Shown piece after piece: positions 1,072 through 29,607 of a DNA stretch of 64,000 nt. Numbering within the stretch: the stretch's first letter is position 1; every line of letters starts with the position of its first letter. The stretch spans positions 26,729,501 through 26,793,500 of the forward strand of contig NC_088303.1 in NCBI RefSeq assembly GCF_032854445.1, given 5' to 3'. The DNA is from Liolophura sinensis. Taxonomy: Eukaryota > Mollusca > Polyplacophora > Chitonida > Chitonidae. A model generated the notes under the pieces. That model had not been told where the DNA came from. It saw only the letters and a list, made by a program, of their open reading frames with translations, and ran no database searches. The position numbers and the translations under genes are program-made.

Positions 1072-4000
1072 TCTCAGAAGTCAGAATCAGGAAAGAGGTC
1101 ACTTGCTGCTCAGATTTCCAGATTGAGACGAGAAATTGAAACCCTTCAAAGGGAGCTGAGCATTGCACACGAAAAGCGAGATATTTGGGAGCATCGCTAT
1201 GAGGAGAGGAAAGTGCGGACAAAAGCCAAGCTCTTGAAAGCCAGGTATTTGAGGGCTTGTTTCAGTCTTAGACATTGTGGGATGTTCATTGAAGCACATG
1301 AATTACATGTAGCCATAAGATTGGCAATGAACAAGGTGTGAGGGAAGCTGTGGTGGCCTGCATGATTGGTGAAGGTGTAGAGTGATGATGATGGATATAA
1401 GCATGGATGATTGGCCATGAACAAGGTGTGAGGGAAGCTGTGGTGGCCTGTATGATTGGTGAAGGTGTAGAGTGATGATGATGGATATAAGCATGGATGA
1501 TTGGCAATGAACAAGGTGTGAGGGAAGCTGTGGTGGCCTGCATGATTGGTGAAGGTGTAGAGTGATGATGATGGATATAAGCATGGATGGTTGGCATTGA
1601 ACAAGGTGTGAGGGAAGCTGTGGTGGCCTGCATGATTGGTGAAGGTGTAGAGTGATGATGATGGATATAAGCATGGATGATTGGCATTGAACAAGGTGTG
1701 AGGGAAGCTGTGGTGGCCTGCATGATTGGTGAAGGTGTAGAGTGATGATGATGGATATAAGCATGGATGATTGGCAATGAACAAGGTGTGAGGGAAGCTG
1801 TGGTGGCCTGCATGATTGGTGAAGGTGTAGAGTGATGATGATGGATATAAGCATGGATGATTGGCATTGAACAAGGTGTGAGGGAAGCTGTGGTGGCCTG
1901 CATGATTGGTGAAGGTGTAGAGTGATGATGATGGATATAAGCATGGATGATTGGCAATGAACAAGGTGTGAGGGAAGCTGTGGTGGCCTGCATGATTGGT
2001 GAAGGTGTAGAGTGATGATGATGGATATAAGCATGGATGATTGGCCATGAACAAGGTGTGAGGGAAGCTGTGGTGGCCTGCATGATTGGTGAAGGTGTAG
2101 AGTGATGATGATGGATATAAGCATGGATGATTGGCATTGAACAAGGTGTGAGGGAAGCTGTGGTGGCCTGCATGATTGGTGAAGGTGTAGAGTGATGATG
2201 ATGGATATAAGCATGGATGATTGGCAATGAACAAGGTGTGAGGGAAGCTGTGGTGGCCTGCATGATTGGTGAAGTTGTAGTGGGATGATGATGGATATAA
2301 ACATGGATGATTGGCAATGAACAGGGTGTGAGGGAAGCTGTGGTGGCCTACATGATTGGTGGAGGTGTAGAGTGATGATGATGGATATAAGCATGGATGA
2401 TTGGCCATGAACAAGGTGTGAGGGAAGCTGTGATGGCCTGGTGATTGGTGAAGTTGTACTGGGATGATGATGGATATAAGCATGGATGATTGGCAATGAA
2501 CAGGGTGTGAGGGAAGCTGTGGTGGCCTGCCTGATTGGTGAAGGTGTAGAGTGATGATGATGGATATAAGCATGGATGATTGGCAATGAACAGGGTGTGA
2601 GGGAAGCTGTGGTGGCCTGCCTGATTGGTGAAGGTGTAGAGTGATGATGATGGATATAAGCATGGATGATTGGCAATGAACAAGGTGTGAGGGAAGCTGT
2701 GGTGGCCTGCATGATTGGTGAAGGCGTAGTGGGATGATGATGGATATAAGCATGGATGATTGGCAATGAACAAGGTGTGAGGGAAGCTGTGATGGCCTGC
2801 ATGATTGGTGAAGGTGTAGAGTGATGATGATGGATATAAGCATGGATGATTGGCCATGAACAAGGTGTGAGGGAAGCTGTGATGGCCTGCTGATTGGGGA
2901 AGTTGTAGTGGGATGATGATGGATATAAGCATGGATGATTGGCCATGAACAAGGTGTGAGGGAAGCTGTGATGGCCTGGTGATTGGTGAAGTTGTACTGG
3001 GATGATGATGGATATAAGCATGGATGATTGGCAATGAACAGGGTGTGAGGGAAGCTGTGGTGGCCTGCCTGATTGGTGAAGGTGTAGAGTGATGATGATG
3101 GATATAAGCATGGATGATTGGCAATGAACAAGGTGTGAGGGAAGCTGTGGTGGCCTGCATGATTGGTGAAGGCGTAGTGGGATGATGATGGATATAAGCA
3201 TGGATGATTGGCAATGAACAAGGTGTGAGGGAAGCTGTGATGGCCTGCATGATTGGTGAAGGTGTAGAGTGATGATGATGGATATAAGCATGGATGATTG
3301 GCCATGAACAAGGTGTGAGGGAAGCTGTGGTGGCCTGCTGATTGGTGAAGTTGTAGTGAGATGATAATGGATATAAGCATGGATGATTGGCAATGAACAA
3401 GGTGTGAGGAAAGCTGTGGTGGCCTGCATGATTGGTGAAGGTGTAGCGGGATAATGATGGATATAAGCATGGATGATTGGCAGTGAACAAGGTGTGAGGA
3501 AAGCTGTGATGGCCTACATGATTGGTGAAGGTGTAGTTGGATAATGATGGATGTAAGCATGGATGATTGGCAATGAACAAGGCATCAGGGAAGCTGTAAT
3601 AGACTGCATGATTGGTGAAGGTGTAGTGGGATAATGATGGATATAAGCATGGATGATTGGCAATAAGTAATGCTGATATAGTCATGTCAAGGCATTCATG
3701 TTTAAACACACATTGCAAACACATTTGTATGTTTCAAATTACATTCTACAGCCAGATTTTACTGAATGTTTCTGATTTTAAACCCAGACAGGGGTCAGCC
3801 CCTTGAAGACTCCCTTGTTGTCAGAGTGAATAAATGGAACTTTCTGACCATCATGACTTTCCGTTATATTACACAAATGTGACCAGATTTCTATATGTAG
3901 TTACAACACCTATAGCATATTCAGTCCTACATGGTAGCAGCCATTGTAACACACATAAATGTGGCTGTGATACAAACTGTCATGCGATACCATCAGTTGC

Positions 4001-11325: not shown

Positions 11326-14300
11326 ATGGCGTCTACCTCATACCCACCAGTGTATCTGATTCTTACAAGTATACTGGTGATTTGTAAACTATGGCAGGCA
11401 TCAGCTGATCGTAAGTACTAGCAGGCAAAGGGTTTTCCAACATCTGCTTCTTGCTACAAGTAAATATATTATTTTTACCTGTCTCGAATTTTAAAGGGTG
11501 TCTTCAGTTTGACCAGGAAACATTTGCTAAGTTACAGAATTTTACCCCAAAAAGCATAGTCGTGTTCATAACTACACTATTTTCTTGGACATAAACCTAA
11601 TTATGAAATAAGATAGTGAAATGTATAATGCGTGATTTTAGTTGATGACAAGCTGTTCATTGATTACAAATCTCGAGCAGTTAGCTATAACTCATGTCTG
11701 TTTCGCCTGTTTCATGAGTGAAACAGGCGAAACAGACATAGCTTTAGACTAAACAAAGCTGGAGGTCTGAAAATTTGCTACCACATTTGCTGAATGTGGT
11801 ACCAAACGTTTTTGAACAGAACATAAACCAGTCGGCGGATGAACATGAGAACAAAATGTTTTCTTATAAGGAAAAAGCCTCGTATCGTAATGTATACTAT
11901 TGAGAGGGATTGAATATACATTATGCTAAAAGATTAATAATTGAAATAAACATCAATATTTTCAGAACGTTTAAAGTAAATGGCATAGCTGGTGTAAATA
12001 CTTTCTGTGTTGTATGTCATTTAATTGCAAGATTGGTGATGTATGCCGTACTCAAAGTTTCACGTATATAACGATTGTCAGGTATATATGATTGGGAGAA
12101 TCAGGACAGAGGCCGGAGGACTGCGCTGCATCTTGTCAGGTACCTAACAAACTGCCTGATTGAAAGCCTCAGGTGAACCAGCGGGAGTTTGATTCGAACG
12201 CTCAACGGTGTAAAGCGCTCTGTCAGCAAGGCCCTGCCAAGGTGTAATTGCCAACATAAAAGACTACCGTATATGGAGTAAATCCTGAAGAGCTTTTACT
12301 CCGATCTTTTGTAAACTTATTTCGGTTATGGCTTTATCCTAACTCAGAACTGTCGGAATTATGGCCTAAATCACGTTGACCTGTTGAACTGAAACATGTA
12401 CAGTTGGCGTTGTCATGACGTGCAATAGATATTACATTGTGTGTGCTTCAAATGACAAGATCTATGAAATGACAAGATCTACACACACGTGTGTCTAGAT
12501 ACGGAAGCTGTATCAATGTCAGATGATGTATTATCCTGTTGTTTTCTTGTTTTCATTGAGCAGTAATCGATATGGAGATGTTAACGTTTGATGGAGGATT
12601 CTTCGTTATGGGGTCAAATGACAAGAATTCCAAAACAGGGGAGTATCCGGAAAGACGAAAGGAGGTGCTCCCGTTCAGAATAGACAAATATCCCGTACAG
12701 ATGAGACATTACAGGTGACTTATATATTAATTTACCCATTAGGAAAATACACGTACAAAAGATATCAGTAAACAAAAAACAGTCATAGTAGGGTCATATC
12801 CTAGTGCTACAGTCATATTCCAAGTGCTGAAGTCATATTTCCAGTGCTGAAGTCATATTCCTAGTGTTGAAGTCAAATTCCTAGTGCTGGAGTCTTATTC
12901 CTAGCGCTAGAGTCATATTCCTAGTGCTTTTAGGAAGTCGTATTCATAGTGCTTGGAGTCATATTAAGTCTGTTGAACACAGTGGTGAAGTCATATTCAT
13001 AAAGCTGAAGCCATAGTTATAACTTCCACGACCTTCTTCCACGAGACAGCAGAATCTGATCGAAATTCCATTTAAATGAAGAAGTCTAGAATAACACGTA
13101 ACCTTTAAAAAAATCAATAGAAAAGGCGACATAATTTCAGGAGCTTCATGGAACACCGTCGCCAGCGCACTCGTGCTGAACAGTTAGGCTGGAGTTACGT
13201 GTTTGAAGACCTGGTGACGGAGCAGGGCCGAATCAACGCTTCTCGGACACTGCCTGACCAGCCCTGGCTGTTGGCAGTCAAGAAAGCCAACTGGCTAGTG
13301 GTAAGATCATATAAATTTGTTGATTACAATGGGTTGAATGTTTAATTATTTCTAAGGACGTATTCAGCATCATATATAATACCGTAGTCGTGTCCTCTTT
13401 TAACACGACAGTCTCACTGTCATAGTTATTTAAGGTAATGCTGCCTCACTAACATAACATGCATGAGACAGATAACACCACACCACTCAACACTTCCTTG
13501 AAATTATGTTGTCGGTGATTTCCGCGATGTTTAACAAGCGGTGTCCTCATGATTATAGTCTTTTTTCATCACAACCCTTTCTCATTTCACCATTTAACTT
13601 GACGGTTCTGAAATAATTCCAGAAACGAAAGTTTCTTCATCACCGCTTCCTTGAGTTGTTTGAGTTTTTAGCATTCCATCATGTAACCCGAGAACCCGAG
13701 AGTAATTCCATCATAAATTTATACAGCATAGTTTTTCTTCACCACTACTCTAGCCGGGAGACCTCGGATCAAACTCGGGCCGGGCCATACAAAAAAATGG
13801 CGCTTGTTGCTGCCTCGCTTGGAGCTCAGTATTGAGAGGTTAGAGCAAGAAAACACGATAGGTTGGCACGGTGTCAGTATAATGAGACTAGGTGGAGTGT
13901 AATGTCTGGTGTCTTCGGCATGATACTTCGGTGGCGGCAACACTTTGGCAACTTGGCAGCCAGGCCACCAGAAGATACTATATATGTACACACATCTAAT
14001 GGCCCCTCGTCTTGATATGACTGAAAAATTGTTAATCTGTGCATCGGAACAGATATTCGTATACCAGCCGTCAACCAATAAGAACGTTCCAGATCAATAA
14101 TCCCAGGGCAAATTTCCCAAAACGACGTATAACACAAACCACCAAAGAACTCAGAAAAGATATAAATGGAATCATGCAATGAGAAGCAGTGAACAGTTTT
14201 CAGTAATGTAGGATCACAATTTGTACCCATCGGAATATCTATACACTGCTGATATATGATTTTCCCGAATTTCACATAGATGTTATTAATGAGAAATTCA

Positions 14301-17130
14301 AGCAACTATTTTAAGTACGAAGTTAAACCCCAAGCATTCATTTTCAGTACGACGTAAAACCCCAAGCACTGATTCATTCATTCTTCATACTCCCGTTATT
14401 CATTCCATCCTGTAACCTGACAATCTGGCAGTAATTCCATAATACATGTATCATTATACTTTTCGTCGCCACTACTTTAACTTTTCCTCATTTTATCATG
14501 CAACCTTCAACAGCAGTTCCCCAGATGTGGTTTCTTCCCCATTACTCTTTCTCATTTCATCATGTGACCTGACGATCGGAGAGTAATTCCACAATAGATG
14601 TATTATCATAGCTTTCTTCACCACTGCTCTAGCAGTCATTCCACCATGTAAGCAAACGTTTCTGAAGTAATTCCATTGATATAGTTTCTTCATCAATGCT
14701 CTGTCTCATTTCATCATGCAAACTGGCGGCTCAGGAGTAATTCAAAGGTTGTATTCTTCACCATTGCTCCTGTTTTCTCTCCTCAGCCAGAAGGCCCTGG
14801 AAGTAACATCACAGGCAGGGACTTCATCCCCGTCGTTCACGTTAGCTACCAGGATGCCCAGTATTACTGTAAGTGGGCCAACAAACGACTGCCCACCGAG
14901 GCAGAGTGGGAGTTCTCCGCCAGAGCAGGGCTTAAAGGTCAGTGACAGACAGGTAACTTTTTTATTTGGGTTGTGGTCAAAATAAAGTGACCCTACAACA
15001 GCTATAAGCAGAGACCAATCTCATAAAAACATATATATTTATGCATAGTCTTTTTGGCGATGTTGACAATTGCCTAAGCCTCCTCCTTCGGAATAAAAGT
15101 GGAATTTTCTTACTGTTATTGACCAGGAATGTCAGTGCAATGTTTGCCAAGTAGGACATGACACAAAGACTCAGTAATTTAGTCAGCTACTGAATTTACA
15201 CAAACATCGAATCATTATAATCATTGCTAAGCCACAACTGACTTGTCTCAGGAACTTGACTGGGTGATGCATGTAGCTATATAGCCATTGAGGTTGCTGA
15301 ATGTGAGGGTCGGGCAGTGAATATTCGCACAGTGTGCCAGTATATTAATCAGGTTTTTAGTCAATGAATTGGTCAGTTTGTCAAAACAGTCAGTAAGTAA
15401 AAATGTCATCCATTCAGTCGGTTCGTGAACGAACATGATTCAAACACTAACATTTTCTAGCACTTTGTTTTCATGGACTCGCCCAGTCACAAGACACGGT
15501 ATATAAACTACCAGGCAAAAGAAACGTATAACCTTGTTCAGCACCACAAGAAAGAGAAAAAAAGACAGACAGTATCAACATGATAAGCATTATATTGCAA
15601 TAAACCATTTTCCAAGTTCTGTTCAAAAATTCAAAGCCATATGGATATTACACTTGCTGTCAGGCCGAGCAAAGAAGGCATGGGGTAAATCTGAAAAATT
15701 ACACAAATGTATGTAAAGGGACTCCCTTAAAAAGGTGTACCTGATGTCCTATAATGTCATAAGACAGATCGTTAGTAGCGTGTGTGAGCACCCAATGCAT
15801 CAATTAAAGCCAAAATACGTCTCCTCATGGAAGTCGTCAGCCGCCGGATGACGTCATCAGGAATTATGTCCCACTCCTCAAATAAAGCCTGTTCGAGCTG
15901 TTGCCTGTTTTGTGGGGGAGGGACGCGTTGTCTCAGACGTCGATCAAGATGATCCCACAGATGCTCTAAGGGATTCATGTCTGGCGATCGTGATGGCCAA
16001 GGCAGTACGTTGACATCAACGGTGTCCAGATAATTTAGTACAACTCTGGCGGTATGAGGTCGTGCATTGTCCTGCTGCAAAAGGATACCCCTTTGCTGTT
16101 GATGCACGAATGGCACCACAACAGGTTCCAATATTTCATCTCGGTATCTTTGGCCAGTCAGATTTCCCTGGATGATGACCAATCTCGTTCTCACCTGTCC
16201 ACAAATTCCGCCCCATACAAGCACCCCACAAGCACCAAAAGGGTGGACATTCTGAATGCAGTTTGGTGCCAATCGCTCTCCCGTGCGTCGATACACACGA
16301 ATTCGACCATCATTTCTGAAGAGGTTATATCGGCTTTCATCAGTGAACAGCACCCTTTCCTAGTCTCGTCGCTGCCATCGACGTACAACTCTTGCCCAAC
16401 GCAGCCTGTTTTGACGGTGTAGAGGAGTCAATGCCATTCCACGGAAGGGGCGATAGGCTCTGATACCACTCACGCGGAGTCGTCGTAAGACTGTGCGTCT
16501 GCTGATGGGGTGTCCCAGTGCCGTTTCCGCCGTTGACGTCGCCGTCACAAACCAGGTGGATTGTGCGGATGTACCGGTCTTCGCCAGGCGTTGTAACACT
16601 TGGCCTGCCCGATCTTGGAAGATCTTGTGTCCTGCCTGTTAGGCGGTAACGACCCAACAGTCTGCTGATTGTGGCTTGACTGCAATTGAATGTTCTGGCA
16701 ATGTGGTGTTGGCTGGCCCCCATGTCGGCCATACCAGTGGCTCTATCACGTTCTGCTTGTGTGAGTCTCGGCATCTCTTAGATGTTTTTTTTATGGTATT
16801 GCACCCTTACCATGTGCTACATCGGTATTTATACGGCGGTCATTATCGAGAATTTTCAACAGGGCCCGAAACTCTGTTTTTTCCGATTTTTCATGATGTA
16901 TTACACCATTTTCAATGAATCTCGTTAAAAAGTGACGTGTACACAGGGTGCTTATGTGCAAACGTATTCGCACAACGTTCAAACTTATTCAACTTATTTT
17001 TCCATAGAAAAAACTGCATTTAAAAGTTATACGTTTCTTTTGCCCGGTAGTTATATACACACACACACACCTAATGACTCCTCATCGACATATGACTGAA
17101 AAATGGTTGAGTACGACATAAAACTTCAAG

Positions 17131-17193
<63 letters not shown>

Positions 17194-19462
17194 TGAAATT
17201 TTCTTGATGGTAAGTAGAGAGTCAACGCAACAGAGAAACATATTTAATCTAAAGAAAATATTTATTTTTACCTCACGTATTTGTCTGCAAAGTATATAGA
17301 TCATAAGCTGTAATCTGTTTTCCAGGCTCAGAATATCCATGGGGAAAGGAGATGTTACCGAATAGGATGAATTTCTGGAAGGTGAGTTTCGCGTTTTTCC
17401 TATACAGGTGCTTTCTGCACCACTGGGTGATTTGTCTATAATTTGTCTCGTCTGTGATGACCTGTCCGTAATAAATGTGGCATTTAGTCCGGTGCTTCAG
17501 AAAGTTTTTGCCCCTGTCTGCTTTCCTCCCCGTGTTATCTAACGTCTACCATGAGTTCCTCTGTACTTCTCATGTACTTCTCATGTATATGCGACTAGTC
17601 AGTCAGTAAGTAAACGTGTCCTATTTTTCAGGGTCGTTTTCCTGATGAGAACTTGTTATGGAAACATAGAAAAGGGTTGACAGTGGTGAACCAGTTCCCA
17701 GCTCAGAACCATGTCGGTAAGCTATACACGTTTGGATTCTGTTCTCAAAGCCATGTCGATAAGTAATAAACATTTGGGATTCTGTTCTCAAAACCATGCG
17801 GGTAAGCAAGGAGCGTTTGGGATTCTGTTCTCAAAACCATGTCGGTAGCAACAAACGTTTGGGATTCTGTTCTCATAGTCATGTCAGTAAGCAACAAGCG
17901 TTTGGAATTCTGCTCTCGCAACCATGTCGGTAAGCAATGAACATTTGGGATTCTGTTCTCAAAGTCATGTCGGTAAGCAACAAGCGTTTAGGATTCTGTT
18001 TTCAAAACCATGTCGGTTAGCAAAAAATGTTTGGGATTCTGTTCTCCTAACCGTGTCGGTAATGAACAAACATTTGGGATTCTGTTCTCAAAGTCATGTC
18101 GGTAAGCAACAAACGTTTAGGATTCTGTTTTCAAAACCATGTCGGTTAGCAAAAAATGTTTGGGATTCTGTTCTCATAACCGTGTCGGTTAGCAGTAAAC
18201 ATTTGGGATTCTGTTCTTAAAACCCTGTCGGTAAACGACGAACGTTCGGGATTCTGTTCTCGGAACCAAAGTCATGCAAAAGCATGTCGATAAGCTCTTA
18301 AATCATATTTCCAATATTGACTTAAATCAGAAATTGCTTTGTTGAATCGGCTTAAGGACATTGAACCAGAAACTGTGCTTGGAGTAGTACAAAGAAAGGC
18401 ACCAATGATTTTGATCTTAATGTACAATGGTTTTCGGTTAGTGTTAACTTTATTGCGGCCTACCACTTCATATTCATATTTTGTAGGCATGTACGATCTA
18501 TTGGGCAACGTTTGGGAATGGACATCAACCCCGGCTATTAAACATGAAGATGAAAAAAAGATGACGACAACCAATGCAAAAATAGCAAAAGGCGGGTCCT
18601 ATTTGGAACTGGCGGGACCTGGCATTACTACGGGATATCAACTACGTATAAGCCAAAGGTAAGCGTTCAGTCGCCATTTACCATCGGGCATTGTATTTGT
18701 CTTACAACTATTACCATGTCCACAAGCGTGACTTTCGTGTCGTCAGTGTCTTCACCAAACTGAGATGTCAAGCTCATTGTGTTCACTGTTGTTTCTCAAC
18801 ACCGTAATTTCGTCCTTATAGTCACTAACAAAATCATAATTGTGTGAAGTTTACCTTCCTGCTTCTGTGCACTTCTCTTTTTGTCTTGTCACACCTATCT
18901 AATGTTACCGTCGTCAAAATCACGACTATTTTTCATTCACATGATTTAGGTTATTATCCTTGGCCTTATCTCATTGTCTTATCTCACATTTCACTTATAC
19001 GACGGCGGCCAGCATTATGGTGGGAGGAAACCGGGGAGAGCCCGGAGGAAACCCACGACCATCCGCAGGATGCTAACAGACCTTCTGACTTACTTTTGTG
19101 ATGTATAACTTCTCACCTTAAAATAACAAAACTGAAAATTTTTAATGTGGACAACATTTTGGTAAAAACACCACGTTTTCACTGGAGTAAACTAATGGGT
19201 TGGATATCCAATATGTATATGTACTTGGTACGGTTTCAGAAAAGCTATAGATCCTCGTTTCACGGCCCACCATGTTGGATTCCGATGTGCACGTGACGCC
19301 AAGCACGGCAAGGCTGGGACTGCGGCTAAAAGCAAGCTCCCACCCCCTCCCCGACCCTCCGTCAAGCCGAAACCCAGAAAGAAGGCCAGGACCTTAGACA
19401 ATCCCTCACCCAAGAGGCGAGGGGCCAAAAAAATCAGAAAAAGAAAACATATTGAATTATAA
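11326..19462 (+). CDS. SUMF2: SUMF2-like FGE-domain protein, tandem copy 1 (ends HIEL)
   Basis: Eight exons (11326-11410, 12564-12714, 13141-13300, 14787-14937, 17326-17381, 17632-17716, 18487-18658, 19240-19462) join in frame to 360 residues. Residues 1-28 are a signal peptide with hydrophobic core [11 protein letters not shown]. About 30-305 form the formylglycine-generating-enzyme fold: [11 protein letters not shown] near the start, [19 protein letters not shown] (165-183), [11 protein letters not shown] (232-242), KGGSYL (264-269) and VGFRCA (299-304). The two catalytic cysteines of SUMF1 (human C336 and C341) are replaced by Glu270 and Gly275, so formylglycine synthesis is not expected. 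Human SUMF2/pFGE, an ER regulator of SUMF1, likewise lacks them. A Lys/Arg/Pro-rich tail (308-356) ends in HIEL, a known KDEL-type ER-retrieval variant. Sequon NIT is at 139-141. It is a paralogue of the gene at 22460. AATAAA at 19636-19641 may be the poly(A) signal. Orthology to vertebrate SUMF2 rather than an independent cysteine loss is not proven. Confidence 0.9.
11411..12563 (+). other. Intron 1 of SUMF-like gene 1
   Basis: Donor GTAAGT, acceptor TTGAGCAG. It contains a perfect 21-bp hairpin (11694-11739) and, at about 12180-12240 on the minus strand, a tRNA-like box B (GCGTTCGAATC) that may be a SINE-head remnant. No exon seen. Confidence 0.7.
11694..11739. repeat. Perfect inverted repeat, 21-bp arms, 4-nt loop
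   Basis: The left arm 11694-11714 (starts ATGTCTGTTTCGCC) is the exact reverse complement of the right arm 11719-11739. The arms are separated by TGAG. It lies inside intron 1 of SUMF-like gene 1. No TA duplication or longer terminal repeat is visible, so I do not assign it to a transposon family. Confidence 0.95.
12781..13010. repeat. ~20-bp minisatellite in intron 2 of SUMF-like gene 1
   Basis: About ten imperfect units of the type AGTCATATTCCTAGTGCTGA, decaying toward the 3' side. It sits in the short intron 12715-13140. Confidence 0.85.
13749..14036 (+). mobile_element. SINE-B copy (tRNA-derived)
   Basis: Head GGGAGACCTCGGATCAAACTCGGGC has a box-B-like GATCAAACTC. The body AATGTCTGGTGTCTTCGGCATGATA is shared with the copy at 45780-46137, and the end is ATATGACTGAAAAATTGTTA. 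The usual tail is lost at the junction with the RT remnant. Confidence 0.7.
14037..14310 (-). pseudogene. Reverse-transcriptase remnant (Penelope-like or related)
   Basis: The minus strand encodes [24 protein letters not shown]-like sequence. I.PMGTNC is a reverse-transcriptase core motif commonly seen in Penelope-like and related retroelements of invertebrates. Downstream of that motif the frame no longer resembles RT, and no intact element flanks it. It is a short dead fragment within intron 3 of SUMF-like gene 1. The family assignment rests on one motif. Confidence 0.45.
15511..17047 (-). mobile_element. Tc1/mariner-type DNA transposon
   Basis: Terminal inverted repeats CCAGGCAAAAGAAACGTATA.. 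(15511-15532) and its reverse complement at 17026-17047 match at 21 of 22 positions. They are flanked by TA at 15509-15510 and 17048-17049, the duplication expected for Tc1/mariner. At 1537 bp it has normal size for the family. It is inserted antisense in intron 4 of SUMF-like gene 1. The transposase inside is broken, so it could move only if helped in trans. Confidence 0.93.
15772..16774 (-). pseudogene. Tc1-family transposase, frameshifted
   Basis: The N-terminal part (16774 downward) carries the paired-type helix-turn-helix: [15 protein letters not shown], then [21 protein letters not shown] and [10 protein letters not shown]. The reading frame shifts near 16545, where [21 protein letters not shown] continues. 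An in-frame TAG near 16357 follows RWQRRD, and the catalytic part resumes as [10 protein letters not shown]. The DDE triad is visible: [18 protein letters not shown] and [11 protein letters not shown], with 34 residues between the second D and the E (DD34E, Tc1 family). One frameshift plus one stop make it a recent but dead copy. Confidence 0.92.
17066..17134 (+). mobile_element. SINE-B 3' end fragment
   Basis: CATATGACTGAAAAATGGTTGAGTACGACATAAAAC..CAAGCATAC matches the 3' end of the SINE-B copy at 45780-46137 and runs straight into a TA microsatellite. Confidence 0.65.
17135..17192. repeat. (TA)n microsatellite
   Basis: Uninterrupted TA/AT dinucleotides of about 58 bp, directly after the CATAC tail of a SINE-B fragment. 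Confidence 0.98.
17717..18290 (+). repeat. 43-bp minisatellite of exon/5'-splice-site copies
   Basis: Thirteen units of 42-43 bp (the last irregular) of the type GTAAGCAACAAACG, then TTTGGGATTCTGTTCTCAAA, then ACCATGTCG. The unit boundary coincides with the real donor of the exon ending 17716 (AGAACCATGTCG|GTAAGC). Each unit therefore repeats the last bases of the exon plus the donor. GTAAGC is retained at units starting 17802, 17887, 17930, 17973 and 18102. Units 6-8 and 9-11 are near-identical triples (129-bp higher-order repeat). Confidence 0.95.
18985..19080 (-). mobile_element. SINE-A fragment
   Basis: CACTTATACGACGGCGGCCA and GCATTATGGTGGGAGGAAAC followed by GACCATCCGCAGGATGCT match the 3' half of SINE-A in minus orientation. 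It lies in the last intron of SUMF-like gene 1. Confidence 0.75.
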
Positions 19463-20791: not shown

Positions 20792-21142
20792 GGAGTGAGT
20801 GAGTGAGTGCTTGGGGTTTAACGTCGTACTCAACAATTTTTCAGTCATATGACGACGAAGGAATCATTAGGATGCATGCACGTGTAATGTGCCTCCTAGT
20901 TGCAGGACGGATTTTCACCGCTCTTTTATTTAGTGCTGCATCACTGAGACGACTTACCGAAGGCAAGTAAGCCGCCCCGCCCGAGCCATTATACTGATAC
21001 GGGTCAACCAGTCGTTGCACTATCCCCTTCATGCTGAACGCCAAGCGAGGAAGTTACAACTTCCTCTTTTAAAGTCTTAGGTGTGACTCGACCAAGGATT
21101 GATCCTGGATCTACCGGTCCCGAAGCGGACGCTCTATACAGG
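20792..21142 (-). mobile_element. SINE-B copy, near full length
   Basis: On the minus strand it runs from a tRNA-like head (TAGAGCGTCCGCTTCGGGAC, box-B-like GGATCAATCC) through CCGTATCAGTATAATGGCTC to CATATGACTGAAAAATTGTT and GAGTACGACGTTAAACCCCA, with an (ACTC)n tail at 20792. The copy at 55624-55869 is highly similar over the 3' 240 bp. Confidence 0.82.
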
Positions 21143-21461
21143 CTTAGAAAGAAGTTAAAAGGAAATAACCGTCGGGATTGACAGAATGTTTTAGCAGCAC
21201 TGAAGTAAAGAATCCTTGCTGGACAATAGAGATCGAAACGATTTCACAACATGTATGATGCACCCTGAAGAATTAATGAACTGCCGCGACTTTGGCAACA
21301 TAGCCCTCATATCGCGGTGACCCTATATAACTTAACCTCCAACATACCTAACATCTAAGGAGTATCCTTAATACTGTGTGATGAAGGGTGTCATGATGAG
21401 GTATCTGTACTGAACACCGCTCTTATGTGGTCCTGCAGAGTTGTTTTACAAACGTCGATAT

Positions 21462-22459: not shown

Positions 22460-25400
22460 ATGGCGGGCATTACCTTTATCCTGTTGAAATGGATGCTATG
22501 TATTTCTTTTTGTATTATCACTTTCACAACGGCGAGTATCAAACTGAAACCAGCGGCCAACTTGGAAAGAAGTGAGTATAACTGTTCAAAACAATGCAAT
22601 ATATGGTTTCATTACACAAAGAGTACATACAAATTACTTGAAAAGTTGCTCTAATTATAACAACGTTATGATGTCTATATTTATTATCAAAGTAAGCAAA
22701 TTGTACCAACTGTTCTAACCTCTACTGGGTTAAATTTGCCTAAACCTTTTTTTTATCTATAAAAATTTAGCTTTTTTTGGTATGTGAACCTTTTGTGAAC
22801 CTGGTGCATGTTTACATATCTATGGAAGGTCTATATTCTCCCCTTTATCGCTTTCATTATTTGAATTGGTATACTCATTGGCCAGCAGATGTACAGTATT
22901 TAGTATCTGTAAAGTCGCGGTTTATATTCGTGTGAAAATACGTGTTCAGTATTCAGGCTTATTTTGGCCTCTGATAGTAGTTTCCTCTGACATATTTTAA
23001 TGACTATCGGTCAAGAAATATTGATTCTGCATTGACTAAACTTATATCAAGTTTGGGGTACTTTGCAGCCTGATTGTTAGCGTGCTAGCACAGCTTAATG
23101 AGCCAGGAGCCGCTCACCAGTGCGGTTGCCGTGAATTGAAGCCCAGCTCATGCTGGCTTCTTCTCCGGTCGTGTGTGTAGAAAGGACTGCCAGCAAGCTG
23201 AGAATGATCATGAGTTCCCCCCAAACCCTAATCAATTCCCTCTCATCGTTAAATGCTGACCGCCGTCGTATATGTGGAATCTTGAGTACGGCGTGAAACA
23301 CCGATCAAATAAATAAATCAACTGAGTTCAAATCATTAAACGTTAGATAGGCCTATATACAGGCTTATGTTCCACCGGTGATAAGTGGGCGAAGTATTGA
23401 ACAGGCCGCGATTTACACATACACATCTTAACTTTGGATGTATTTTAAACTTCCTCGAAATAGTGTATGGTGAGACCACGTGTTACAGACAGATTGTTTG
23501 TAAATGACCACACAGTGTGAAGTGTGTATGGAGTACTATTGTATCGATTCCATTCAACACGCCCGTTGTGCCACCACACAGTGACAGTCAATCTGCAAAG
23601 ACTCCATAGGAGACTGGACTTCCTGCTAAATTTATGCGAAAGAAATCGGGGGAAAAGGGTTGTCTCCCTTGTAACATGTTGTTTGTCAGCCATACAGAAC
23701 TGTCAACGATAATCGAAAATAAGGCATTTTGTGGATGTAGTTTTTTTTTTCGAAATGTTTACATGTGGATCGTTTCTACTACCTAACGGTCAACATGGAC
23801 TGACCATTCACGGTCTGACATCAAGCCTTGTCTAGTATGTCATTACCTTAACCTGGGGTAGGTAGCGGTAGTAGGCCTATATGGTATGCCGGTAGAAAAC
23901 ATATTACTAAGGCACTTAATATGTTGTTAACGTCTCTTGTTTTGAAAGCTAGAAATGAATTCTTGCTCCGCCTCCATATCTTCTGTGACTCTGAGGTATT
24001 TAAAGATGCCCTCATACGTCTTTCTGTCATGTGCTGACTTGCTTATTATCAATGTATTAAGTGAAATTCTACCCGAATTTGACGACAAGATCTTGTTCCA
24101 TGAAGTCGAGCGCTGGATCAAAATCTCGCGGGATCGACGGTTTACCCCGGGTTTTAACCTTTTGCTCAAATTGTATATCCGACCGCCATCATGCATGTAA
24201 AGAGAACGCTTTGAAGAACCTCATGATACATGCACCAGAGAAAAAAAAAATGATGAACAGTAAACATAAGTAATCTATGCGTCGAAGCAGAAATTCTTAT
24301 ACCAGCAGTCAACCATTCAAGACGTTTCAGGCCAAGAATCGCAAGACTACTCCGTCAGCTGGTGTGATCCTGCTACACCTTTCCTTGATTGCAGACTGTA
24401 CCTTTTGTATTTACTTTCTTTGCTCATCAGTCAAAGCGCTGGATGATCCCTATGCCTCTATGAGAGAAATCCAAGGCGGGAAATTCAAACTCGGCGTGAA
24501 TGACCCGCGCTCCAAAACAGGGGAATACCCTCCTCGTGAGGTCAAGGTCAGGGATTTTTACATTGACCTTTATCCTGTCACCGTATCTCAGTTCAGGTGA
24601 GTGGTTATTTCTCCGTATAGTTTCATTCTTTAATGGCCAAGCATGATTATCGTACAGATATCACTACCTTGATTCAGACCCCTTTTTCATGATCTGTTTT
24701 GACAGAAAATCCTAAAGTGAAGCAAAATCGCAGAGGAAGACAATAAATGTACTTGTACTTAGATATGTTGAGTTTTAACTGAAAGCTGCATAGCAAAGCC
24801 AATTTGAAATCATTTGCAAGAGCACGATTAGTTTTATTACGTTATAGTTTTAAAATTAATAATCATTCAGTCTTATTAGTGATTTTAAAACCAGTCTCTA
24901 GAGGTTTTATCAAATAGGTAGATAAGTAATATGTACTAATCTTAGTGAATTACGAGGTTTTATTTTAATGTCACGATATTATTGAATAGGCCAGACCGTA
25001 GAATGGGTTAGTCCACAGCAAAATCAACAAAATCAGTTCAGTGAAAAAGTCAAAAACAAAAAATCTCTGGCAGGAGATTCACCCATATGTTTTAACGATT
25101 TAGGGTAATCATCTATTAATGAATGTCTATACATATTCCTCTTGTAATATACATACACATAAAATGTGACATCTGATTTATATTGTCGATTACAGGAAGT
25201 TTAAACAGAATAAGACGAAGTTCAGGACGACGGCGGAGATCCGTGGATGGAGTTACATCTTTGAGGACGCTCTCACGCCAGAGGTGCGGGAGGTCAGCGA
25301 ACGGCCATTCCTGGACCAGCCGTACATGTTGAAGGTGGCCAACGCCACGTGGAATAGGGTGAGTGATAAACTACCTAATCAGTCAGTCACTTCATTGTCT

Positions 25401-28400
25401 GCAGAGATCAACGTCATAACATTCTGCTTGGCAAATTCATTCATTTTGAATGACAAACTATATACTCTCAAAAAACAGAAAGTGTGTTGTCTGAGTGATA
25501 CGAGAATGTGTTCTTTTATTACAACATACTACTGTGTCATGTACAACATAGTATCCTGTTAGTTTTGTACAATGTTTATACTGATTTAATAAAATAATCT
25601 ACTGCCACAACAGAATACTTTCTAGCCTCACTCAGACAACAGATTTCCTGTTAAATTTAACAGATTATATTTTTGAGAGTACCTTACGTTATACAACAAT
25701 TTTCAGTTATTTTTATCTACAATATGCGTTTGTCTACTGTTTACAGTACTGGTAATGTAAGCTCACCAGTGTCACCAGATACTATTTACATATGTAACAG
25801 ATTTGTGTTCGTACAAGTTAAGCATCTAGGCCAAAAACTGGTTGGTCTGGTGTCATTGTACTGAGTTTGGTGTCAATCCAGGTGTGCTTGGTGTGGAGTT
25901 CCTGGGAGAGGGATATGTTTATGCATTTTTTATTTCTTTATTTGACTGGTGTTTTACACGGTACTCCCGAATATTTCACCTATGCGACGGCGATCAGCAT
26001 TATGGTGGGAGGAAAGTGGGAAGAGCCCGAGGGAAGCCCACAACCATTCACAGTCTGCTGGCAGTCATTGCGCTGCACGCAAAAACACATGTGTTGTTTT
26101 CATTCAACACAAAAATGTGTTACCCCAACGCAAACATGTGTTAAATAAATGTAAAGTACAAATGTTTGTGTTACAAAATAATAAAACGCAAACTTGTGTT
26201 GAACCAAAATGAGGTAATTTATGCAATACAACAAAACCTTGTGTGCTAGCATTTTGCAACAAGTATTGTGTACAACATCCAAGACATCTTGTGTTTAATT
26301 CATTCAACACAAGACCTTGTTTTCGTTCAACACAACAAAGAGTTGTTAAAATATGGCACAAGACTTTTATTGGGAAGAACACAGGAACAACTTTGTGTTC
26401 ATATAACACAAGTGTTTTTGTGTGCGCGCTGGCATGTTTAAAACTCGCAAACAGAGGTCCCCTGAGGCAGATATGTGGCATTGGGAACGACATACAACAC
26501 ACCATCTGTCATGATATGAACAGAATAAAGTGGAAAGATGCGTTCACGCAACAGTATTGTTGACAATGTGTTTAGTGATGTAATAACAATTTTGTTTTAT
26601 TCAGCCCGAAGGTCCAGGCTCGACGACCAAAAACCGCATGAATTACCCACTGGTCCACGTGACGTTCCATGACGCACACACCTATTGCCAATGGGCTGGA
26701 AAACGTCTACCAACAGAGAATGAGTGGGAATATGCCGCTAGAGGGGGACTCAAGGGTAGGTAATGGACGAATAGCAAAATGAGCCCAATCAAGAAATAGC
26801 ACTAGTCATCATCCAGATAATAGATCTATACCGTTTGTCGGCGTTTATAATAGAGGTCGTTGATAGTTATATGTCAGTGCAAAAGGCGTTTTATTCCAGT
26901 CATAATGTATGGTCTAAAATCACGTTGAAGTGGTGGTCATCGAAACATGGTCCATTTATTCCTTTGCTTTACCTTCTAGAGCAAAACTATCCATGGGGAG
27001 ATCGTTTCAAGAAAAGAAGAATGAATTACTGGCAGGTAGGAAAGGAAACAGTTTATTAATTACGACAAGAAGAGTGTAAGTCGCTTTCCCCGTCCGTCTG
27101 TCGTTGTGATTTTTCTGGGGTTTTTTTTGTTCCGAATTTTCGGCATTCTACCTTTAAATATAAGCCATTCACTTAACGTGTCCTGGGTGCAAAGCGACAC
27201 CAATATTTTGCGGGATGTCACAGTTACGGCAAAATTACGCGTGTTATAACAACATCAATAAAACAAATGTGCGTGTGAAGTTTCAGTTCAGTCATTTAGA
27301 AAATCACGAACTGCTCTTTTATGGATACATACTTTTTGACAAAGTCATATTTTAATAGTATAAACGATATAGTAATAACAATATGTACTCAAAGCTGTGC
27401 TGTCTTTACTTCTTAAATGCGTCTGTATATATTATAGGCTAAAAATGCAGTACGTGCTGATGGTGCCATGTATATAGTTCGGATGGTAAAATGGTTTTTA
27501 ACAGACCTGTTGGTTCATTAACAGGGTAAATTCCCGGATTTCAACAGAGTTTGGGACGAATGGGAGTTTCTGTCTCCTGTTGATGCCTTTCCTGCACAAA
27601 ATGAGTACGGTGAGTCTGATCATATTGACATCAATCAGTCATGTCATTGCTTATATCAAGTAGACAAATCAACGCAAAGACGCAACCCTGAGACAGCTAA
27701 AATACAAACCCTTGATCTTTTACCTCAATGAACGCATTTCTCGCACCATAACCCCATGTATTAGTTAAAAGTTTCGCTAAACATCTGTATTGCCTCGAAC
27801 GTTTTAGATTCTCCTATGAAATGTCACAAAAGGAGAGTACGACAAGAAGGAAAATTTACAATGTCAAAATTGAAACTTGGACATTAGTATACCGACGGAT
27901 TTTAATCAACGTCACAAGCCATTACTGCAAAAATTTGTGTGTTAAGGATATTCCACCAAACGCCTTCACTCCAAATTTCTTAACTTGTACAATGGGTATA
28001 ATTCTCTTGTAAGTAAATATGGACAGATCGTCCTGAATCTCTGGGGCTCTGCTTCAAGAATGTGTCTAATTCCGTTGTATTCGGCCATACACTCATCGTG
28101 TTGAATTAGATCACCACGTTGGATATATTAACAGTTGCAATCGAAGAGCAACTGAGACATATTTTGTTATCGACAACTGATATTCTAGCATTATACACGA
28201 TTTGAATAATGATTTCACTCATTCATCGCCTAGAACATACCAAGCGTTTTTCCAACATTTTTGAAAACTGATAAAAAATATTGTGATGTTTATTTGCACT
28301 AAATCAGAAATCACTAAATTTACAGGAATGTTCGATCTAATGGGAAATGTGTGGGAATGGACAACCACGGAGTTCTATCAGCGAGGTGTTAACCGACACG

Positions 28401-29607
28401 AGCAGCCCAAACGATATGTGCTGAAGGGAGGCTCGTACCTTGACTCTAGAGAAAGCGATTACGGTAGCGGGAATTTCGTGGTGCGCTCATCTACTAGGTG
28501 AGTAAAAGTAGTCCGGCGTCAAAAAGCCTGTGTATGATCTGACAGTAACACGTTTATTTTTCACTTTTTTCTGTGTGAAGCTCGTTGGATGGGACATCTT
28601 TTGTAAAGGCCATATGTATGGCTCTACCCATTGCTCTGTGTTGCTTCTATGTGTTCCAAATCGACACTTTACTGATTCTTGGTTTAAACATGTTCACACC
28701 ACGGTATGCCTACATTTTAGCCGAAGTGGCTTTAAGCCACACCCATTCATTCATTCATTCATTCTTCTGTGCTAAGTTGTAGCAACCTTGGCTTCCGTGC
28801 GTTCTTTTTGAACACACAGGTTGTCAAGAACCTTGCGCGCATGACACAAAGGCTTTATTCGCTTCGTTTTTTTTTTTAAGATCGCCAAATAACAGTTAAT
28901 ATCTAAGTAGTGTTAACCATCAAATAAGTAAATAATGGAATAATTTAAAAAAATATCTTTCATAACATTTCTTTTAATCAGTCAAAGTCAGTCGTGTGGA
29001 AGGATCAGGTACTTTCATCTCGATCATATCATATCACATTGGATCCACCATGGACAGTCAACGGCTTCGATTCAATCAAGGGGAGACTACTCTAAGCGCA
29101 CAGTTCATCAAGGGGAGACTACTCTAAATGCATAGTTCATACTCAGCCTCTTCAGAAATCGAAGTCTTAGAACTTAGTGAAAATCATCATAATCCAGGTC
29201 TTTGAGTTCATGAAATTGGGGAAAAAGTGGGAAGGGGAGGGTGGTGGGGAGTGGTTGCTGGGGCGTTGAGGCATAACAATCCTTATCATCGACTATGTTA
29301 AGTACTTGTGAATGTTATCATAACTGTATAAATGAAATTTGATTCTCAATGTTCCAGACGTGGTCTTGAGCCTGATTACTCCGCCCATCATGTAGGCTTC
29401 CGCTGCGCCGTGACATCACCACACATCCCTGCAGCTGGGTCAAAAGTTAACAAGACAAAAGACCGGCCCAGACGGGTTCACAAAGTTCACGAAATGCATG
29501 ACCAAACAGGCGCTCGCCAGATGCTTCTGAAGAGAAAAGCGGAGCAAGCGCAGAAGAAACGATCCACTACGCGGACTGTAGTGCGCGTATTGAAGGATGA
29601 GTTGTAG
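22460..29607 (+). CDS. SUMF2: SUMF2-like FGE-domain protein, tandem copy 2 (ends KDEL)
   Basis: Eight exons (22460-22571, 24431-24596, 25196-25358, 26605-26755, 26980-27035, 27525-27609, 28326-28497, 29358-29607) give 384 residues. The signal peptide has the hydrophobic core [11 protein letters not shown]. The FGE fold follows: [40 protein letters not shown] (about 179-198), [11 protein letters not shown] (247-257), KGGSYL (278-283) and VGFRCA (314-319). Positions of the SUMF1 catalytic cysteines hold Asp284 and Asp289, so oxidase activity is not expected. A basic tail ends in canonical KDEL, which predicts ER-lumen retrieval. Sequon NAT is at 142-144. Intron phases match copy 1 at every junction, and four internal exons (151, 56, 85 and 172 nt) are identical in length, which shows tandem duplication. 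The start ATG (ACATGG) precedes the signal peptide. The 1.9-kb intron 1 is inferred from phase compatibility. Role by analogy with SUMF2/pFGE: modulator of sulfatase activation. Confidence 0.9.
22572..24430 (+). other. Intron 1 of SUMF-like gene 2
   Basis: Donor GTGAGT, acceptor TCATCAG. It contains a SINE-A (23067-23319). Just before the acceptor, 24285-24345 resembles 14055-14095 in intron 3 of copy 1 (ATTCTTATACCAGCAGTCAA versus ATTCGTATACCAGCCGTCAA). The open frame running into the exon is therefore repeat-derived, not an alternative N terminus. Confidence 0.65.
23067..23319 (+). mobile_element. SINE-A copy
   Basis: TTGTTAGCGTGCTAGCACAG, AATGAGCCAGGAGCCGCTCA, GCTCATGCTGGCTTCTTCTC, then CTTGAGTACGGCGTGAAACA and an AAATAAATAAAT tail. 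Only the first bases of the tRNA-like head are eroded. In intron 1 of SUMF-like gene 2, sense orientation. Confidence 0.85.
25465..25679. mobile_element. MITE-1 copy with TA target duplication
   Basis: CTCTCAAAAAACAGAAAGTG at the left and TTTTTGAGAG at the right are inverted, with TA on both sides (25463-25464, 25680-25681). GTTGTCTGAGTGATACGAGAATG near the left end is inverted as ..TCTAGCCTCACTCAGACAAC near the right end. 215 bp, in intron 3 of SUMF-like gene 2. Confidence 0.85.
25928..26080 (-). mobile_element. SINE-A copy, head missing
   Basis: TTTATTTGACTGGTGTTTTACACGGTACTC and CAGCATTATGGTGGGAGGAA place the 3' two-thirds of SINE-A on the minus strand. It stops at 26080, where the AACACAA-rich tract begins. 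In intron 3 of SUMF-like gene 2. Confidence 0.8.
26080..26425. repeat. Tract of short AACACAA / TTGTGTT words in both orientations
   Basis: AACACAA and its complement TTGTGTT recur every 15-40 bp in alternating orientation (for example TTCAACACAA, CTTGTGTTGAA, ATTCAACACAAGACCTTGT, TTTGTGTTC, AACACAAGTGTTTTTGTG). There is no fixed period. Intronic in SUMF-like gene 2. Confidence 0.7.
28747..28768. repeat. (ATTC)n microsatellite
   Basis: About five ATTC units in intron 7 of SUMF-like gene 2. Confidence 0.85.
29077..29141. repeat. 32-bp tandem duplication
   Basis: Two adjacent near-identical units starting ATCAAGGGGAGACTACTCTA, in intron 7 of SUMF-like gene 2. Confidence 0.85.

Follow-up and report, generated by a model that had tools for sequence, protein, structure and literature searches.

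Tandem arrays that take in a splice site are of a kind already known from lancelets and human genes. In amphioxus, minisatellite-like tandem duplications of exon/intron boundaries, termed mirages, occur in Adh3 and in the globins BflGb6 and BflGb9; haplotype length differences and reverse transcription-polymerase chain reaction (RT-PCR) are reported for them, and regular splicing is reported to be undisturbed (PMC3087553). In human ABCA7, a 25-bp variable number tandem repeat (VNTR) ranges from 12 to about 427 units, and shows retention of one unit that is independent of length, together with exon 19 skipping that rises and expression that falls as the array lengthens (PMC5954066). The human CBS 31-bp VNTR is listed as c.1444_1467+7(16_21), a name that denotes 24 exon bases plus 7 intron bases and 16-21 repeats (PMC2630376). 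More generally, accounts of tandem duplication of splice sites state that it multiplies splice signals and that new introns or intron positions arise (PMC2891723, PMC2812944). Here we describe a lophotrochozoan case, a 43-bp minisatellite at the donor of intron 6 of a SUMF2-like gene (gene 1) in the chiton Liolophura sinensis. The window analysed is a stretch of 64,000 nt (NC_088303.1, positions 26,729,501 to 26,793,500, forward strand); coordinates are those of the window and features lie on its plus strand, unless stated otherwise.

The chiton array resembles the amphioxus mirages in its boundary-spanning unit, in the splice signals carried by many but not all of its units, and in its signs of turnover. 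It differs from them in being lophotrochozoan, in having 43-bp units in about 13 copies and in lying on the donor side, whereas BflGb6 repeats the acceptor side and the part duplicated in BflGb9 is the 3' boundary of exon 2. Elsewhere in the genome, a Hox gene has KLTGP following its homeodomain, the signature of lophotrochozoan Lox5; an amphioxus source for the window, considered because mirages were first named in that animal, was rejected on this ground. Pairwise identity among its 13 full units is 70-100%, against 81-100% given for BflGb6. As in the ABCA7 array, where a donor-like GT begins each unit, the first GT is the true donor (that of exon 18 in ABCA7); in ABCA7, splicing at the next GT keeps one unit in the transcript and changes the frame so that a stop is met, and a similar outcome is predicted for the chiton array. 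The ABCA7 array begins at the donor and is intronic, unlike the chiton unit, which holds 15 exon bases. The presence of both the exon end and the donor in the unit is a feature shared with the CBS VNTR, from which the chiton array differs in that the former is human and polymorphic. Reduced CBS activity with this VNTR was reportedly found by Lievers et al. in 2001, and Zhuo et al. in 2007 are said to have dealt with introns derived from tandem arrays. Set against the published outlines of intron gain by tandem duplication, the chiton array leaves the old intron in place, and this intron only grows. Targeted searching of the mollusc and oyster literature showed no donor-spanning array among the papers listed, which is not proof of absence, and the passages available on earthworm metallothionein, LHX3, MIR137, C. 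elegans minisatellites and USH1C contain no donor-spanning unit.

The array and its ladder of donor-like sites

Exon 6 of gene 1 (85 nt, 17632-17716) ends after AQNHV, and the next glycine is split by a phase-1 intron. Its predicted end at 17716 is drawn from the intact joined frame and from a phase-1 intron position common to the sister gene (gene 2). From 17702 to 18268, Tandem Repeats Finder (TRF) reports a period of 43 with 13.2 copies (score 693); unit parsing and alignment resolve 13 full units of 42 or 43 bp each at 17702-18258. Unit 1 consists of the last 15 nt of exon 6, CTCAGAACCATGTCG, followed by the first 28 nt of intron 6, GTAAGCTATACACGTTTGGATTCTGTT, and all 13 units are in register. 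The first-pass annotation had placed the exon end and the donor GTAAGC inside the repeat unit, which is borne out with 15 exon bases instead of the 10 it quoted; the array is indeed present in the span it gave, 17632-18290, but 17632 is the start of exon 6 and the array begins only at 17702. Unit parsing also recovers a degenerate unit 14 (18259-18299, end approximate) with ATAAGC at the donor position. Read by eye, this unit is seemingly broken by about 15 bp and is then followed by single-copy intron.

The array is still turning over, as seen from a 107-nt block (17940-18046) that occurs again 129 nt downstream, the two copies differing at no more than one position; at nine other offsets tried, the best block was 28 nt or less. 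This recent internal duplication makes instability of array length plausible. Because unit 10 belongs to the recent copy of units 7-8, the intact donors are not all independent.

The ladder of donor-like sites is real. Among the later full units (2-13), the donor position reads GT in 11 of 12 and GTAAGC in five (units 3, 5, 6, 7 and 10). The true donor, GTAAGC at 17717-17722, was placed by frame and shared intron position and has a predicted U1 duplex energy of -8.2. Donor strength here means U1 duplex energy only, a strong site is one at or below -8.2, and "decoy" denotes a prediction from U1 pairing. Four later units equal or surpass the true donor in this respect: unit 3 (CGG/GTAAGC, 17802-17807) beats it at -10.3, and units 6 (17930-17935), 7 (17973-17978) and 10 (18102-18107, a recent copy of unit 7) carry a 9-mer identical to it, TCG/GTAAGC, at -8.2. 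Unit 5 (TCA/GTAAGC, 17887-17892) is weak at -4.5. The donor position of unit 2, the nearest unit, is dead, with AT instead of GT (ATAAGT, 17759-17764), and the remaining seven later units lie between -2.1 and -5.5. The earlier count of at least five later units with GTAAGC therefore stands; the three bases before it are those of the true donor in units 6, 7 and 10 and differ in units 3 (CGG) and 5 (TCA). The true donor is itself middling: the 13 donors of both genes range from -5.2 to -11.7, and eight of the other 12 pair better than that of intron 6, four worse.

Strong sites are far denser here than in the background. With the true donor excluded, there are four in the 581 nt of the array, against two in the other introns of the two genes, which total 10,483 nt (Poisson P = 5.8e-6 with the intron rate as background and 4.5e-4 with that of the whole window); the opposite strand has none in the array and four in the other introns. 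Dinucleotide shuffles of the array gave a mean of 0.43 strong sites and a maximum of three, none of 400 reaching four. Over all 582-nt stretches in the window the maximum is five strong sites, reached by a stretch that holds all four decoys along with the true donor.

When splicing passes over the true donor, the first in-frame stop is a TAA at 17764-17766, 16 codons after QNHV, as originally proposed. The accompanying proposal that use of any downstream donor would truncate the protein applies to units 3-13, since splicing from any of these 11 to exon 7 would include this TAA, and does not apply to unit 2, which would be in frame and avoid the stop, and has lost its GT. From the TAA to the junction that follows, the distance is 35, 120, 163, 206 and 335 nt when units 3, 5, 6, 7 and 10, respectively, serve as donor. 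The next exon, exon 7 (18487-18658), is placed by the joined frame and by an FGE-sulfatase match in the genome search, and the exon 7/8 junction lies 172 nt beyond the exon 6/7 junction. Under vertebrate-type rules, a stop so placed upstream of junctions leads to mRNA decay. If such rules apply in the chiton, decay would be the likely fate of mRNAs spliced at later donors, because the stop falls 35-335 nt before one junction and a further junction follows 172 nt on.

These properties could be read as a splicing rheostat, in which the ladder sends a controlled fraction of transcripts into exon extensions that contain the stop and array length sets the output of the gene. Such a device would make sense of four decoys that are no weaker than the true donor in their pairing with U1, of their extreme local density and of the stop, with a further junction downstream, that every functional decoy brings in; it would also have a human parallel in the falling expression and rising exon 19 skipping with VNTR length described for ABCA7. 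Yet the donor columns show no more conservation than the other columns, as detailed below, and the donor of the nearest unit is dead. Regular splicing is reported to be undisturbed by the amphioxus mirages, and one-unit retention in ABCA7 is itself independent of length. We consider a rheostat unlikely.

Probable origin at the exon 6/intron 6 junction

Gene 1 comprises eight exons (11326-19462) that join into an intact frame with a stop, and gene 2 comprises seven (24277-29607) that also give an intact frame when joined; both exon models are predictions based on open frames, splice words and homology. The two form a tandem SUMF2-like pair, both intact and in one orientation. The FGE-sulfatase domain (PF03781) is found in the C-terminal parts of both proteins, at 148.5 bits in gene 1 and 166 bits in gene 2 (cut-off 23.3). 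Among solved structures, the best match to gene 1 is human SUMF2 (1y4j, E 3.6e-45), with the aligned stretch FPAQNNYG, and gene 1 scores nearer to SUMF2 (157.8 bits) than to FGE/SUMF1 (119.9 bits, 2aft). In gene 2, the exon equivalent to exon 6 (27525-27609) ends in AQNEY with an identical split of the glycine, at the phase-1 intron position common to both genes. No array follows this exon, as judged from the lack of any TRF row over 27600-28300.

The units retain the reading of the exon. Unit 4 encodes AQNHVG exactly and in the exon frame, and the only difference between the unit consensus and the exon is a synonymous one, CAA for CAG, with CAA also found in gene 2. Two DNA searches of the whole genome (a single 609-Mb assembly of 632 contigs) with the array gave one match only, the array itself; these searches score the best candidates only and skip common words, and do not prove the array to be rare. 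A 16-mer around the donor occurs exactly twice in the genome, both times in the array, and with at most one mismatch it has 12 matches, four in the array and eight elsewhere, compared with 14 for a reversed-pattern control. A dispersed repeat or satellite was rejected within the limits of these searches, which found no copy outside the array. Because of the in-frame AQNHVG, the CAA of gene 2 and the lack of a second copy in these searches, the array most likely grew in place from the exon 6/intron 6 junction. The suggestion that the exon came first and seeded the array is well supported by the same in-frame peptide and the single match, and by the intron position common to gene 2.

In a rival reading, the array came first or the exon end (CATGTCG, encoding HV where gene 2 has EY and human SUMF2 has NY) was overwritten by conversion from it, and the array would have shaped the exon as well as the other way round. 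Both odd codons do lie in the core of the unit and are common to most units, and the residue before the glycine, V in gene 1, is Y in both of these relatives. The AQN and G codons of the unit, however, match the gene family in the correct frame and register, and unit 1 is about as far from the consensus as the other units, with no sign of recent overwriting. A rewritten exon is, on this evidence, very unlikely. The genome search found no third SUMF2-like copy with which to decide between HV and EY; it did find a further FGE-domain gene elsewhere (C7:3983303-3983437).

Drift within units and the status of the ladder

Mismatches per column were counted over units 2-13 and tested by column permutation. 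The donor columns hold 9 mismatches in 72 cells (12.5%); the unit taken as a whole has 56 in 516 (10.9%), and its exon-derived columns have 22 in 180. No selection on the donor columns was found by the permutation (P(<=) 0.70, P(>=) 0.39), and the consensus 6-mer is intact at the donor in 5 of 12 units, where about six are expected from the mean rate. Since both the donor mismatch rate and the number of intact 6-mers are near expectation, the donors have decayed at the pace of the other columns. The spacer (columns 22-29) changed most, with 20 mismatches in 96, and its CG column has decayed mostly to CA or TG. The suggestion that array length tunes splicing or dosage is not supported by this pattern, and a regulatory function of the ladder is neither shown nor favoured.

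The part that changed least is the intron-derived tail TTTGGGATTCTGTT (columns 30-43; 17731-18258), with 5 mismatches in 168. Scan-corrected P values over the 12 units are 0.025 at length 14 and 0.045, 0.048 and 0.027 at lengths 10, 12 and 16; with recent copies dropped (nine units), they are 0.08, 0.06, 0.030 and 0.016 at the same lengths. The better keeping of the tail is suggestive only. Binding of splicing factors to its G-run and pyrimidine run would be one conceivable explanation, and homogenisation through copying tracts another.

This tail bears on two further functional readings. G-runs and extra U1 sites can enhance splicing, and the later U1 sites, together with the UGGGA-type G-run present in nearly every unit, might act as intronic enhancers of the first donor, a landing strip for U1. 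In its favour, the U1-strong sites lie close together shortly after a true donor of middling strength (-8.2), and the best-kept part of the unit includes the G-run; set against that, the G-run is shortened to GG in unit 1 and the donor columns are not conserved. We regard such a role as quite improbable. A length-tunable switch, in which each unit would add a decoy donor together with a kept tail that shields or recruits U1, seems to us quite unlikely as well. If it were true, alleles of differing length would yield differing shares of stop-containing SUMF2-like mRNA, and the array would offer a natural heritable ladder for the choice of the spliceosome among identical donors in fixed 43-nt steps.

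Intron gain in progress was also considered. Units 2, 5, 7 and 10 have in their letters an AG after a pyrimidine run (TTCTGTTCTCAAAG/CATAG) and could thus define 8-nt exons with an acceptor and a donor, much as published mirage and tandem-duplication models would allow. Such AAG acceptors are weak, 8-nt exons are rare, the spacing is short and the donor of unit 2 is dead. As regards a new intron bounded by two repeat copies, an acceptor-like AG is present in some units only, and the intron position is old and common to gene 2. We hold intron gain to be extremely improbable.

The array is probably a minisatellite of the mirage type, neutral for the most part and with leaky splicing at a low level, and its ladder a tolerated by-product that has not been selected. 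We favour this neutral reading over function because mismatches are no rarer in the donor columns than in the unit at large. It would have started with a tandem duplication of the 43-bp piece at the junction, followed by further gains of units in register. With the first donor still in use, all of these would have become part of the intron, and the copies would since have drifted as ordinary minisatellite units. The intron would now offer U1 several near-equal donors, the first of which is presumably the one mainly used, to judge from the 85-nt exon and the intact frame after it. Occasional use of units 3, 6, 7 and 10 would extend the exon by 85, 213, 256 and 385 nt, respectively, each extension carrying the stop, and the extended transcripts would either be removed or give a truncated protein.

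Several observations weigh against this neutral reading. The donor-containing VNTR of ABCA7 alters splicing and expression with its length, the density of strong donors in the array is far above background and unit 3 is predicted to be stronger than the true donor, so that "tolerated" may be the wrong word. Plain drift does not account for the well-kept last 14 columns of the unit. Finally, the HV codons are unlike those of gene 2 and SUMF2, and growth of the array may have altered the exon end.

Surrounding sequence and significance

RNA structure of the array was rejected as a candidate feature: an 859-nt stretch gave a z of +1.33, with 19 of 20 shuffles folding at least as well. No inverted repeats of at least 10 were found within 17600-18500, and no compensating changes were noticed in the within-unit hairpins of the predicted fold. 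Gene 1 contains a second array, of 20 bp in 6.8 copies, in intron 2 (12793-12928); unlike the 43-bp array, it has no contact with an exon. Intron 4 holds two open frames of 195 and 145 amino acids on the minus strand (15772-16777) which we take, by eye, to resemble a frame-split Tc1/mariner-type transposase. Beyond gene 1, the stretch 20793-21145 seems to resemble a dispersed repeat, tRNA-derived or otherwise, of a sort common in molluscs, and a 90-bp array of 26 copies with 94% matches (1319-3664) carries long minus-strand open frames of up to 795 amino acids.

With the chiton array, boundary-spanning minisatellites are found in a lophotrochozoan as well as in cephalochordates and humans, a distribution suggesting that they may originate wherever minisatellites arise. 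If it is spliced as predicted, the locus would be a natural experiment, with identical 9-mers at 213, 256 and 385 nt and a stronger one at 85 nt, so that a single intron would test the role of position, not sequence, in the choice of donor. If the array is neutral, as we hold most likely, it would be a caution against taking rows of donor-like sites as regulation.

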